Shown in pieces: positions 18,162 through 22,115 of a DNA stretch of 64,000 nucleotides. Every line of letters starts with the position of its first letter. Positions within the stretch are counted from its first letter, which is position 1. A program made the translations under genes and the position numbers. The DNA comes from Stenotrophomonas sp. SAU14A_NAIMI4_5 (GTDB lineage Bacteria > Pseudomonadota > Gammaproteobacteria > Xanthomonadales > Xanthomonadaceae), in assembly GCF_003086795.1 (NCBI RefSeq), contig NZ_CP026003.1, positions 2,840,579-2,904,578 of the forward strand, written 5' to 3'. A model generated the notes under the pieces. That model did not search any database, was not told where the DNA came from, and was given only the letters and a program-made list of their open reading frames with translations.

Positions 18162-19679
18162 TTACTCCACCACCACCGGAATCTTGCCGATGCGGGCCTG
18201 CCACTCGCGCGGACCGGTCTTGTGCACCGATTCGCCGGTGGAATCGACCGCCACGGTCACCGGCATGTCCTGCACGGTGAACTCGTAGATCGCTTCCATG
18301 CCCAGGTCGGCGAAGCCGACCACCTTGGCCGCCTTGATCGCCTTGGACACCAGGTAGGCCGAACCACCGACAGCCATCAGGTAGGCCGACTTGTGCTTTT
18401 TGATCGCCTCGATGGCGGCCGGGCCACGCTCGGCCTTGCCGACCATGCCCAGCAGGCCGGTCTGTGCCAGCACCTGCTCGGTGAACTTGTCCATGCGGGT
18501 GGCGGTGGTCGGGCCGGCCGGGCCCACCACTTCATCGCGCACCGGATCGACCGGGCCGACGTAGTAGATGAAACGACCCTTCAGGTCGACCGGCAGTTCC
18601 TCGCCCCTGTTGAGCATGTCGACCATGCGCTTGTGCGCGGCGTCGCGGCCGGTCAGCAGCTTGCCGTTGAGCAGCAGGGTCTGGCCCGGCTTCCAGTTGG
18701 CCACGTCTTCCGGCGTGATCGTGTCCAGGTCCACGCGGGTGCCCTTGGACGAGTCGTAGGTCAGCTTCGGCCAGTCTTCCAGCGACGGCGGGTCCAGCAT
18801 CACCGGGCCGCTGCCATCCAGGGTGAAGTGCGCATGGCGGGTGGCCGCGCAGTTCGGGATCATCGCCACCGGCAGGTTGGCCGCGTGGGTCGGGTAATCG
18901 TTGATCTTGATGTCGAGCACGGTGGTCAGGCCACCCAGGCCCTGCGCGCCGATGCCCAGCGCGTTGACCTTCTCGTACAGCTCCAGGCGCAGCTCTTCGA
19001 TGCGGTTGGATGCACCACGGGCCTGCAGATCGGTGATGTCGATCGGCTCCATCAGCGCTTCCTTGGCCAGCAGCATCGCCTTTTCAGCGGTACCACCGAT
19101 GCCGATGCCGAGCATGCCCGGCGGGCACCAGCCGGCGCCCATGGTCGGCACGGTCTTCAGCACCCAGTCGACGATCGAGTCGGACGGGTTGAGCATGGCG
19201 AACTTGGTCTTGGCTTCCGAACCACCGCCCTTGGCGGCGACGATGACGTCGACGGTGTTGCCCGGCACCACCTTGACGTTGACCACGCCCGGGGTGTTGT
19301 CCTTGGTGTTGACGCGCTTGCCGGCCGGATCAGCCAGCACCGAGGCGCGCAGCTTGTTGTCCGGGTGCAGGTAGGCGCGGCGCACGCCTTCGTTGGCCAT
19401 GTCTTCCACGCCCATGGTCGCGTCGTCCCAGCGCACGTCCATGCCGATTTCCAGGAACACGGTGACGATGCCGGTGTCCTGGCAGATCGGACGGTGGCCT
19501 TCGGCGCACATCCGCGAATTGATCAGGATCTGGGCCATCGCTTCCTTCGCGGCCGGCGACTCCTCGCGCTCGTAGGCGGCGGCGAGGTTCTTGATGTAGT
19601 CGACCGGGTGGTAGTACGAGATGTACTGCAGCGCGTCGGCGATGGACTGGATGAGGTCTTCCTGCTTGATCGATGTCAC
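18162..19679 (-). CDS. class I (iron-sulfur) fumarate hydratase
   Basis: Interconverts fumarate and malate in the TCA cycle with an oxygen-sensitive 4Fe-4S cluster; 505 aa. The N-terminal part holds NSRMCAEGHRPICQDTG, and GWCPPGMLGIGIGGTAEKA follows, with the conserved cluster-region cysteines. The C-terminal beta domain carries GRDAAHKRM and VGPAGPTTATRMDKF. The frame is open upstream, but that region runs through a palindromic repeat. The GTG at 19679 (TSIKQEDLIQSIADAL follows) is the best start. The superoxide dismutase at 34 kb is consistent with protection of such clusters, but there is no linkage. Confidence 0.95.
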   Translation of the reverse strand: MTSIKQEDLIQSIADALQYISYYHPVDYIKNLAAAYEREESPAAKEAMAQILINSRMCAEGHRPICQDTGIVTVFLEIGMDVRWDDATMGVEDMANEGVRRAYLHPDNKLRASVLADPAGKRVNTKDNTPGVVNVKVVPGNTVDVIVAAKGGGSEAKTKFAMLNPSDSIVDWVLKTVPTMGAGWCPPGMLGIGIGGTAEKAMLLAKEALMEPIDITDLQARGASNRIEELRLELYEKVNALGIGAQGLGGLTTVLDIKINDYPTHAANLPVAMIPNCAATRHAHFTLDGSGPVMLDPPSLEDWPKLTYDSSKGTRVDLDTITPEDVANWKPGQTLLLNGKLLTGRDAAHKRMVDMLNRGEELPVDLKGRFIYYVGPVDPVRDEVVGPAGPTTATRMDKFTEQVLAQTGLLGMVGKAERGPAAIEAIKKHKSAYLMAVGGSAYLVSKAIKAAKVVGFADLGMEAIYEFTVQDMPVTVAVDSTGESVHKTGPREWQARIGKIPVVVE

Positions 19680-19757
19680 GGCTTGCTCGCTTGCTCGAGG
19701 CTGGCGGGGGGTAATCCCCCATTTTACCCCCTCCCCCGCCCGCAGGATCACAATCAT

Positions 19758-19790
19758 GGGGTCGGATCCCCTGCAGGGGGCTCTGACCCC
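19758..19790. repeat. GGGGTC-class palindromic repeat
   Basis: One unit of the family seen at 3861-3949: arms GGGGTCGGATCCC and GGGCTCTGACCCC around a short loop. It lies between divergent fumarase and ECF41 genes, ending eight bases before the ECF41-type promoter. Confidence 0.75.
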
Positions 19791-19797
19791 ACCCACC

Positions 19798-19824
19798 TGT
19801 CACGATTGCTCCCTCCCCGGCGTC
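19798..19824 (+). promoter_or_regulatory. ECF41-type promoter of the sigma-factor gene
   Basis: TGTCACG (19798-19804), 16-nt spacer, CGTC (19821-19824). The published ECF41 recognition motif is a TGTCACA-like -35 and CGTC -10; an identical arrangement lies at 20697-20723. The sigma ATG is only nine bases beyond CGTC and has no Shine-Dalgarno sequence, so the transcript is likely leaderless or nearly so. Confidence 0.75.
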
Positions 19825-19833
19825 CTGGTCGAC

Positions 19834-20730
19834 ATGAACACTGAATCCGCCTTCCAGACCCACCGCCCGCGCCTGATGGCGCTGGCCTACCGCCTGCTGG
19901 GCAGCCGCAGCGATGCCGAGGACGTGGTCCAGGATGCCTGGCTGCGCTGGTCCGGCGCCGATCCGGCCGCCGTGCGCGACCCCGAGGCCTGGCTGGTCAC
20001 CACAACCACCCGGCTGGGCCTGGACCGCCTGCGTACGGCCCGGCGCGAGCGGGTCCACTACGTTGGCCCGTGGCTGGCTGAACCGCTGGAGATCAGCCTG
20101 GCCGCAGAACCGGCCAGCGACCCGGCGGTGGCCCATGCCCGCGCCGACGAGGTCTCGGTGGCCTTCCTGACCCTGCTGGAGCAGCTGGGCCCGGAGGAAC
20201 GCGCCGCCTTCCTGCTGAAGGAGGCCTTCGACCACGACTACCGGCAGATCGCCGCGCTGCTCGGCCTGACCGAGGCCAACTGCCGCCAGCTGGTGCACCG
20301 GGCGAAGCAGCGCCTGCAGGCGGGCCGGCCGCGCTTCAACGCCGATACCGGCCAGCACCGGCAGCTGCTGGCGCGCTTCATGGACGCCACCCAGCGTGGC
20401 GACAGCGAGGCCATCCAGGCGCTGCTGCATGCCAACGCACGGCTGGTGTCCGATGGCGGCGGCGTGGTCACCGCGGCGGTGCGCCCGCTGCTGGGCGCCG
20501 AACGCATCGGCCGCCTGTTCTGGGCCATCGCGCGCCGCGGCCTGGGCCACACCGCCCAGCTGGGCTGGGTCAATGGCGAGCCGGCGATCCTGCGCTTCCT
20601 CGGCGACCAGCTGCACTCGGTGACCACCATCGAGGTGGCCGAGGGCCGCATCGCCAACGTGTACAGCGTGCTCAATCCGGAAAAACTGCGCGGGCGTGTC
20701 ACGAACGCGGACGGCCCGGCGTCCTTGTAG
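19834..20730 (+). CDS. ECF41-family sigma factor with SnoaL-like C-terminal domain
   Basis: RNA polymerase sigma-70-family factor of 298 aa. Region 2 (RLMALAYRLLGSRSDAEDVVQDAWLRW) and region 4 (YRQIAALLGLTEANCRQLVHRAKQRL) are followed by a C-terminal extension of about 120 aa with a SnoaL/NTF2-like fold. The extension carries a DGGG motif (VSDGGGVVTAAV) and an NPEKL motif (SVLNPEKLRG), the two signatures of ECF41 factors. In that group the extension, not a separate anti-sigma factor, controls activity. The gene has its own TGTCACG/CGTC promoter, implying autoregulation. It is followed by the typical ECF41 partner, an AhpD/CMD protein. Confidence 0.92.
   Translation: MNTESAFQTHRPRLMALAYRLLGSRSDAEDVVQDAWLRWSGADPAAVRDPEAWLVTTTTRLGLDRLRTARRERVHYVGPWLAEPLEISLAAEPASDPAVAHARADEVSVAFLTLLEQLGPEERAAFLLKEAFDHDYRQIAALLGLTEANCRQLVHRAKQRLQAGRPRFNADTGQHRQLLARFMDATQRGDSEAIQALLHANARLVSDGGGVVTAAVRPLLGAERIGRLFWAIARRGLGHTAQLGWVNGEPAILRFLGDQLHSVTTIEVAEGRIANVYSVLNPEKLRGRVTNADGPASL
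20697..20723 (+). promoter_or_regulatory. ECF41-type promoter of the AhpD-like gene
   Basis: TGTCACG (20697-20703), 16-nt spacer, CGTC (20720-20723), inside the last codons of the sigma-factor gene. Motif and spacing are the same as at 19798-19824. The leader of about 35 nt contains a perfect 9-bp inverted repeat (GACGGCCAC/GTGGCCGTC) and a GGAG ahead of the ATG. Confidence 0.75.
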
Positions 20731-20766
20731 TGAAAGACGGCCACCGTGGCCGTCGTGGAGCTGAAA

Positions 20767-21216
20767 ATGTCCGACCATGCCTCTCCCCGCGTCCCCTATA
20801 CCCGCCTGGCCGCTGATGCGTTCAAGGGCCTGCTGGCCACCAGCAAGGCAGTGCATGACAGTTCGATCGACCCGACGCTGATGGAATTGCTGTTCCTGCG
20901 CGTGTCCCAGCTCAACGGCTGCGGCTACTGCATGGACATGCACGGCACCGCGCTGCGCAAGGGAGGCATCGAGCCGCGCAAGCTGGACACGCTGCCGGCC
21001 TGGCACGAAAGCCGTTTCTTCGATGCGCGCGAACGTGCGGCGCTGGGCTGGGCCGAGGCGCTGACCCGCTTGACCGACGGCGCGCCGTCGCAGGCGGCGT
21101 TCGATGCGCTGGCACCGCACTTCGATGAGAAGGGCATCAGTGACCTGAGCATGGGCATTGCGGTGATCAATGCCTGGAACCGGCTGGGTGCCGGGCTGCT
21201 GCCGCCGCTGCCGTGA
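20767..21216 (+). CDS. carboxymuconolactone decarboxylase/AhpD-like protein
   Basis: A 149-aa all-helical alkylhydroperoxidase-like protein. The redox motif CGYC (Cys52, Cys55) with His59 in GCGYCMDMHG matches AhpD-type peroxidase active sites. The ATG at 20767 has GGAG eight bases upstream. The gene directly follows the ECF41 sigma factor and has its own matching promoter. CMD proteins are the usual targets of ECF41 factors, so the pair probably responds to peroxide or another oxidant; the inducing signal is not known. Confidence 0.92.
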   Translation: MSDHASPRVPYTRLAADAFKGLLATSKAVHDSSIDPTLMELLFLRVSQLNGCGYCMDMHGTALRKGGIEPRKLDTLPAWHESRFFDARERAALGWAEALTRLTDGAPSQAAFDALAPHFDEKGISDLSMGIAVINAWNRLGAGLLPPLP

Positions 21217-21290
21217 TCCGCTGACACGCGAATTGACAACATCACAGGGGGCCGGCACCTTTGCTGGCCGCCCGCGGATGGAAACCGCCG

Positions 21291-22115
21291 ATGCAGCCTG
21301 GAACCGATGCCCCGATCAGCAAAGCGGCCCTGAGGGCCCTGCAGCAGTATTCAGATCGGGAGGACGCGCCCCCCGACCTGCTGGCCACGCTGGAGGAGCT
21401 GGGACTGTTGTGGCCGGTGGAGACGCCCGATCACGCTACGCTGCAGGCGCGCATGTTCAACGCTTACGCACAGGCCAGCCAGTCGCACGTGGTGGACAAC
21501 TTCATCCTGGGCGTGGAGGAGAATCGTCCCGAGTTGCGCGCTGGCTTGTCCGCATATTCGTTCATGCAGCACTTCCCGCGCCACGAAGAAGCGCCGCATC
21601 CCTCGCATGCGTGCCGGGTGTGCGGGCGCCAGAGCAATGACACCTTCGACCCCACCTGGCTGAGCGCGGTGACATACACAGCCGGGGCGGTGATCGGTGG
21701 CGGCATGGATCTCATCACCTTCGTGCTGGAGCACCAGAACCGCACCGCGCACCGGCGTCCCGCCTCCACCAGCACGCTGGTCGCGCTGCTGCGGCTGCTG
21801 CATCATGACGCGGCACCGGGCGACACCCCCGCGCGCGTGCTGAAGCGGGTGCGCAGCGTTCCAGGTTTGAAGGTGACGGTGGAGCAGGCCGGCCACCTCC
21901 TCGAGGTGCTGGGCCATGCCGGCCTGCTGCGGACGCCCGAGCATCCAGGTTTGGCACAACGCTTTGTCAACGTGGGGCTGGTGCCATCCAGATCGCATTC
22001 CTCCGACTGGAGCTACCCGGTGGATTTCTGGACCGGCAGGCACGGGGTCGATGCGGCAGCCCTGAAACAGTGGTTCGGTGACTACCCCGAGGTGATGGGG
22101 GTGCTGGAGCCTTGA
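21291..22115 (+). CDS. conserved-looking protein of unknown function
   Basis: A 274-aa soluble protein that I do not recognise. It has two visible halves. The N-terminal half is helical and contains a CRVC pair (SHACRVCGRQSND, about 107-119) that could bind zinc. The C-terminal half resembles a winged-helix-like region (ARVLKRVRSVPGLKVTVEQAGHLLEVLGHAGLL). The start at 21291 (MQPGTDAP) is the first ATG with a purine-rich leader; a TTG 30 bases upstream is possible. Codon use matches its neighbours, so recent transfer is not evident. It lies between the ECF41 pair and an ABC exporter. Confidence 0.65.
   Translation: MQPGTDAPISKAALRALQQYSDREDAPPDLLATLEELGLLWPVETPDHATLQARMFNAYAQASQSHVVDNFILGVEENRPELRAGLSAYSFMQHFPRHEEAPHPSHACRVCGRQSNDTFDPTWLSAVTYTAGAVIGGGMDLITFVLEHQNRTAHRRPASTSTLVALLRLLHHDAAPGDTPARVLKRVRSVPGLKVTVEQAGHLLEVLGHAGLLRTPEHPGLAQRFVNVGLVPSRSHSSDWSYPVDFWTGRHGVDAAALKQWFGDYPEVMGVLEP

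Follow-up and report, generated by a model that had tools for sequence, protein, structure and literature searches.

The two genes described here, for an ECF sigma factor and for a carboxymuconolactone decarboxylase/AhpD-like protein (CMD), very probably form a small self-amplifying ECF41 switch with two promoters of identical geometry. In the mechanism that we propose, the sigma factor would be restrained by its own C-terminal SnoaL-like domain and freed by a signal, a release step modelled on published ECF41 work, whereupon it would recognise two predicted promoters, P1 and P2. P1 would drive the sigma gene from a start on, or a few bases from, the ATG, giving a leaderless or nearly leaderless mRNA, and P2 would drive CMD from a start of its own within the final codons of the sigma gene, in addition to whatever read-through comes from P1. 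The P2 transcript would carry a Shine-Dalgarno sequence and a hairpin of putative function.

Organization of the locus

The window, that is, the whole 64-kb stretch of DNA that was analysed, contains, in this order, a fumarase gene on the minus strand, the ECF sigma factor gene, and CMD, the latter two on the plus strand; the neighbours of the sigma locus comprise the fumarase, CMD, and one protein without a Pfam or NCBIfam match. The sigma gene (19834-20730, plus strand; stop codon at 20728-20730) encodes 298 amino acids, begins with an ATG located 9 nt after the CGTC of P1, and lacks a Shine-Dalgarno sequence. CMD (20767-21216, plus strand) encodes 149 amino acids from the ATG at 20767, the probable start, with a longer version from the GTG at 20746 being less likely; its product matches PF02627 (60.6 bits) and contains the CxxC motif in the form CGYC.

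The sigma factor protein matches region 2 (PF04542, 57.8 bits) and region 4 (PF08281, 55.2 bits), with no further sigma domain above the Pfam cut-off, and scores above the cut-offs of both the full-length SigX4 and SigJ models of NCBIfam (TIGR02957, 326.2 bits against a cut-off of 323.25; SigJ NF007214, 312.4 bits against 271). Its best solved relative is Mycobacterium tuberculosis SigJ (5xe7, E 3e-51, residues 5-288). Region 4 is followed by a C-terminal extension of ~135 residues, including a tail (residues 286-298) encoded by the frame that reads through P2, and the sole Pfam match in this extension is a sub-threshold one to DUF4440. The C-terminal extension of ECF41 factors has ~100 residues and contains conserved motifs named DGGG and NPDKL. 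In an alignment of 7 sequences, the DGGG motif of this protein (D207-G210) is invariant, NPEKL occupies residues 281-285, and the linker motif is WLAEP, one substitution away from the WLPEP of the 6 other aligned family members. We place the sigma gene in group ECF41 (ECF41/SigJ-type), the altered linker motif being a point against the reading as an ECF41 switch; it is the single ECF41 match in its own genome at E <= 1e-30.

Two conserved sites of identical spacing

The preliminary description of this DNA reported a pair of TGTCACG-N16-CGTC motifs, and both are present. P1, the predicted ECF41-type promoter of the sigma gene, spans 19798-19824 on the plus strand (TGTCACGATTGCTCCCTCCCCGGCGTC), with the -35 element TGTCAC at 19798-19803, the -10 element CGTC at 19821-19824, and 17 nt between them. 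P2, the predicted ECF41-type promoter of CMD, spans 20697-20723 on the same strand (TGTCACGAACGCGGACGGCCCGGCGTC), and lies within the last sigma codons, its end being 43 nt upstream of the CMD ATG. These are the sole exact matches in the window, where 0.08 are expected, and none of 100 shuffled sequences reached two, in agreement with the original assertion that such a pair is unlikely by chance. When one mismatch was allowed, 3 matches were found against 5.6 expected, so that the exact sites alone are informative. The preliminary description took the motif for that of ECF41 factors, and it fits the one given in the 2012 ECF41 study of Wecke et al., TGTCACA, 16 +/- 1 nt, CGTC, which was built on 285 sequences (PMC3426412). 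The seventh base is G here; 48 of 67 P1 sites of the genus share this G, and the other 19 have A.

Conservation was assessed in a genus set of 91 genomes. At an ECF41 match threshold of E <= 1e-30, 81 of these genomes have a match and 10 have none; an orthologue of the window's sigma gene (67-100% identity) is present in 71, and a second paralogue alone in 10. P1 is exact in 67 of the 70 scorable genomes and has one mismatch in the remaining 3; one genome (G060), with a partial match whose start is misplaced, was left out of the counts of P1 and of the sigma Shine-Dalgarno sequence, hence 70 rather than 71. For P2, a search within 90 nt of CMD gave an exact site in 69 of 71 genomes and a site with one mismatch in the other 2 (the count is 66 of 71 when only sites near the sigma stop codon are considered). 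All five inexact sites, 3 at P1 and 2 at P2, have CGTCAC in place of TGTCAC. The spacing after TGTCAC is N17 throughout, and no site with N15, N16, N18, or N19 was found at P1 or P2 in the genus. Control windows within the sigma genes yielded no exact match in 1846, and one with a single mismatch. The C that follows CGTC is kept (67/67 at P1 and 64/66 at P2), as is the T that follows CGTCC (64/67 and 63/66); the spacers themselves vary freely among the genomes.

An origin of the pair by chance or base composition is vanishingly improbable: the pattern does occur a few times per genome anyway, but retention of a fixed spacing in nearly all of these genomes while the spacers diverged already refutes that explanation, and the sites are also kept in the best-scoring 18 loci, from 74 genomes, that were fetched from other genera. 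The sequence comparisons thus identify P1 and P2 as a strongly conserved pair of predicted ECF41-type promoters.

P2 accompanies CMD

If P1 alone worked, the sigma gene and CMD would form one operon and P2 would be protein-coding sequence or a chance resemblance. This arrangement fits the position of P2 within coding sequence and the placement of the two genes on the same strand, with 36 nt between the sigma stop codon and the CMD ATG (15 nt if the alternative GTG is taken), but four lines of evidence, presented in the following paragraphs, stand against it and make it very unlikely.

The first is the composition of the codons that P2 overlaps. The first base of P2 is the third position of the codon that precedes a GTC codon, and it is T in 66/66 genomes, across 9 codons for 9 amino acids, whereas the frequency of T at third positions in these sigma genes is 6.7%; the 66 genomes are those with P2 near the sigma stop codon and were chosen for having the motif. 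Fixation of T despite this background indicates that selection on P2 most likely acts on the DNA.

The second is that P2 stays with CMD despite inserted DNA. In three genomes of the genus (G041, G024, and G090), ~600 extra bases and a new sigma tail are found between the sigma gene and CMD, and P2 starts 608-628 nt past the sigma stop codon, its position relative to CMD being unchanged. An Imm26-like protein (PF15428) is encoded by the insert in G041 and G090, the two that were tested. The coordinates of the Imm26-like inserts are 2431-2907 in locus L057 and 2422-2901 in L079, and a similar insert is present in L075.

Other genera provide the third. Matches were obtained in 74 genomes of other genera, and promoters were examined in the best-scoring 18 loci: P1 is exact in 18/18, and P2 is exact in all 17 loci with a same-strand CMD. 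In these 17 loci, the end of P2 varies between 10 nt upstream and 284 nt downstream of the sigma stop codon, yet P2 is always 33-48 nt upstream of the position that aligns with the CMD start. In most loci of this sample, again the best 18 of 74, P2 is outside the sigma frame, which speaks against a protein-coding role.

The fourth is the persistence of the site where this sigma gene is absent, which is the case in 20 of the 91 genus genomes, 6 of them retaining CMD (E <= 1e-40). Five of these 6 possess a second ECF41 paralogue, and the exact motif precedes CMD in 5/5, with spacers of their own. In the sixth, G077, which is devoid of an ECF41 match, a search of 160 nt with up to two mismatches gave no site. 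This co-loss goes in the direction predicted for use of the site by ECF41 factors, with a single genome (G077) on the side of loss.

The sequence evidence is that P2 travels with CMD and not with the end of the sigma gene. Given that its position follows CMD in the inserts and in other genera, the Stenotrophomonas sigma tail after NPEKL is best read as the frame continuing through the promoter of the next gene.

The persistence of the CMD site in those five genomes that hold a paralogue but lack the adjacent sigma gene also bears on the identity of the factor involved. The promoters could be real and yet be used mainly by another factor, for example the second ECF41 paralogue, which is present in 29 of the 91 genomes (43-47% identity, with one at 37%). 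Against this stand the single ECF41 match in the window's own genome and the lack of a second ECF41 gene, at E <= 1e-30, in 52 of the 71 genomes where the sigma orthologue is present, so that we give this possibility little credence. In one such paralogue (G025:C1:2255886-2256722), a TGTCACA site ends 24 nt before the matched start. Autoregulation together with a separate promoter for CMD, as the preliminary description had it, appears to be the best reading, given the ECF41 identity of the sigma factor and the preservation of both sites while their surroundings diverge.

Start of the sigma mRNA

In the 67 genus genomes with an exact P1, the sigma start codon is always ATG, 9 nt after CGTC in 41 and 8 nt in 26. 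Among the best-scoring 18 loci of the 74 genomes from other genera, this distance is 8-9 nt in 16 and 32-33 nt in two. A Shine-Dalgarno-like tetramer was found before the sigma start in 0/70 scorable genus genomes and in 1 of those 18 loci, compared with 86 of 97 loci before the CMD start (some genomes counted twice). Transcription starting ~7-9 nt after the CGTC of P1 would begin on or just before the sigma ATG. The proximity of the -10 element to the ATG, combined with the missing Shine-Dalgarno sequence, suggests that the sigma mRNA is leaderless or nearly so, a reading that we consider probable. In the text of the 2012 study, the mapped starts give 22/23-nt leaders, and the lengths in its Table 5 for these genes are 31 and 32 nt (PMC3426412); our guess is that the Table 5 lengths were counted from the -10 box, in which case the start would lie ~9 nt past it, a position that corresponds here to the sigma ATG.

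Alternatively, the main sigma transcript could start further upstream, or another start codon could be used, which we regard as a minority possibility, if a real one. The first sigma molecules cannot come from P1 by itself, the sigma frame is open upstream to 19621, and the longer distance in the two loci from other genera would be compatible with a leader. Homology, however, begins at the ATG at 19834, and the short distance to an invariant ATG and the lack of a ribosome-binding tetramer throughout the scorable genus genomes all favour a leaderless transcript, as does the failure of a simple scan of 19600-21350 to find a sigma-70-type promoter, although such scans miss many.

The short distance was also considered as a general ECF41 trait, for which no support was found. 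In a survey of 80 named loci (spacer N16-N18, 250 nt upstream of the sigma gene), the motif was found in 15, at 8 to 53 nt from an in-frame ATG, and was absent within the 250 nt in the other 65; the four Stenotrophomonas and Pseudoxanthomonas loci of the survey all have it. By these comparisons, the 8-9-nt geometry is typical of the genus Stenotrophomonas and its family. No treatment of leaderless ECF41 genes was found in the open-access papers searched, where a Sinorhizobium start-site map was the one match.

An imperfect inverted repeat, GGTCGGATCC...GGGCTCTGACC, is located at 19760-19788, just 5' of P1. It has one copy in the window and presumably resembles the dispersed palindromes of Stenotrophomonas.

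The CMD leader

The CMD leader contains an inverted repeat (GACGGCCA-CCG-TGGCCGTC, 20736-20754, plus strand) downstream of the expected P2 start and upstream of the ribosome site, a Shine-Dalgarno-like GGAG at 20757-20760 on the plus strand, 6 nt before the ATG. The two arms of the repeat covary among 83 distinct leaders: pairing is retained in 91.3% of cells, compared with 26-59% when the arms are slid, both sides have changed in 37 cells against 15.5 in shuffles, and 5 pairs show such changes on both sides against 2.5. One base pair supplies 28 of the 37 double-change cells, and pair types are no more numerous than in shuffles (11 against 9.8, with 108 of 500 shuffles as high). The predicted fold of the leader is only 1.6 sd below that of shuffled sequences, 13 of 200 being equally stable, and Rfam gave no hit at the hairpin and two elsewhere in the window, both below the gathering score. 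A 5' stabilising hairpin is our first guess; a palindromic DNA site for a regulator protein fits the covariation equally well.

Genome-wide search for further targets

The preliminary description also suggested that the motifs could be used to find the whole regulon. When the window's own genome was scanned (4,570,883 bases, a single contig), P1 and P2 were recovered, and almost nothing emerged beyond the locus: TGTCAC-N17-CGTC occurs at 4 sites, namely, P1, P2, a site before a smeRv-like gene, and L004. The last crosses a 774-codon frame on the opposite strand, with a short frame starting 77 nt downstream, and was judged to be a chance occurrence. Spacers one base shorter or longer add 18 sites, for 22 in all with N16-N18 after TGTCAC. 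All 18 are within stop-to-stop frames of >= 450 nt, which is weak evidence in GC-rich DNA, and two are at possible gene starts. One of these (L012) is located within an IMP dehydrogenase gene, in antisense orientation, and its surroundings are conserved in 41/41 genomes, as would be expected for this particular gene; the other (L008) borders on the ATG of a nicotinate phosphoribosyltransferase-like gene, and just 8 of 15 relatives have the complete site. Both were rejected, and we judge all 18 to be due to chance.

A larger regulon was not visible over the 91 genomes either, with 429 motif sites against 592 for the reversed control. The reversed control is thus commoner than the motif, perhaps owing only to base composition, as this control is not composition-neutral. 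The few exact sites argue for a tiny predicted regulon, with one candidate outside the locus.

A candidate site before smeRv

This third exact site (TGTCACGATTGTCCCATCCCCGCCGTC; L001 1501-1527, corresponding to 1848845-1848871 of the own genome, minus strand) is located 13 nt before the ATG of a smeRv-like LysR gene, whose divergent neighbours are genes for a short-chain dehydrogenase, an HlyD-type protein, an RND protein, a second short-chain dehydrogenase, and an OEP protein. The order is the same as that published for smeRv and smeU1VWU2X of Stenotrophomonas maltophilia (PMC12189255), a paper whose main text contains no occurrence of the word "sigma". Among 85 leaders from the genus, the exact site is present in 45, all from one clade; this sigma gene is present in 43 of the 45 genomes with the site and also in 27 of the 40 without it. 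Over 46 clade genomes, the 10 motif columns changed once and the 17 spacer columns 16 times, and a ten-column comb is equally conserved at 34 of 443 placements, the smeRv site itself included.

Individual genomes point both ways. G011 keeps the site with no ECF41 match, its fumarase neighbourhood being devoid of the sigma gene and CMD, and G089, which has lost this sigma gene and has the paralogue, has a broken site; G037, 85% complete and with no fumarase found, is uninformative. In the own genome, the base after CGTCC is A at the smeRv site, as opposed to the T kept at P1 and P2, and a start 7-9 nt after its CGTC would exclude from the transcript the AGGA before the smeRv ATG. The smeRv spacer is unusually similar to the P1 spacer of this genome, and the P1 spacer differs in most genomes.

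On this evidence, we reject smeRv as a proven third target, and we treat the site as a lead only, a candidate ECF41 link. That in an S. maltophilia-like clade the ECF41 switch gained smeRv, the gene for the LysR regulator of a multidrug efflux operon, as a third target, which would tie the CMD redox enzyme to efflux control, is doubtful on present evidence. If true, it would exceed the picture of control confined to the own locus that comes from Bacillus licheniformis, Rhodobacter sphaeroides, and Sinorhizobium meliloti.

Discussion

Group ECF41 comprises about 400 proteins from 10 phyla, and the text of the 2012 study, in which no reproducible phenotype was found, already reported pairs with the motif before both the sigma and COE genes (PMC3426412). 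The B. licheniformis and R. sphaeroides loci described there resemble the present one in having a sigma factor with a C-terminal extension, an adjacent gene for a CxxC carboxymuconolactone decarboxylase, and the promoter TGTCACA-n16-CGTC. They have no obvious anti-sigma gene; here, the neighbour without a Pfam or NCBIfam match may or may not be one. In these species, the tested promoter precedes the COE gene and is followed by a 22/23-nt leader with a ribosome site, whereas at the Stenotrophomonas locus the sigma gene has a predicted promoter of its own, 8-9 nt from the ATG, and the predicted promoter of the COE gene lies within sigma coding sequence. Neither Stenotrophomonas nor Xanthomonas is named in the main text of that study.

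S. meliloti RpoE9, an ECF41 factor, likewise has a CxxC carboxymuconolactone decarboxylase as its target, the only one given in the text of the respective paper, with the ECF41 -35/-10 motif upstream of the mapped start (PMC6180224). It differs in that the COE gene is upstream of the sigma gene and probably cotranscribed with it, from one start for both. Azospirillum brasilense RpoE10 is listed among the ECF41 factors and has a C-terminal domain of the SnoaL-like type, as is found also in M. tuberculosis SigJ (5xe7), which belongs to the same family by sequence, but, according to the title cited for it, RpoE10 controls motility and lateral flagella (PMC8999054). It may already be an exception to control of the own locus only.

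Accordingly, the motif, the CMD neighbour, the small regulon, and the paired motifs have been published for ECF41, as the text of the 2012 study documents (PMC3426412). The conservation throughout the genus and in other genera, the independence of P2, the leaderless geometry, and the leader hairpin were not found in the open-access papers searched and appear to be new; the same searches gave no paper on ECF41 in Stenotrophomonas and none on an S. maltophilia carboxymuconolactone decarboxylase together with a sigma factor. The locus is an unusually clean two-promoter case, conserved in the genus and beyond, for which predictions can be made to within a few nucleotides. The pairing of a sigma mRNA that would lack a leader with a CMD mRNA that would carry a hairpin and a ribosome site amounts to a testable claim on the ratio of regulator to enzyme.
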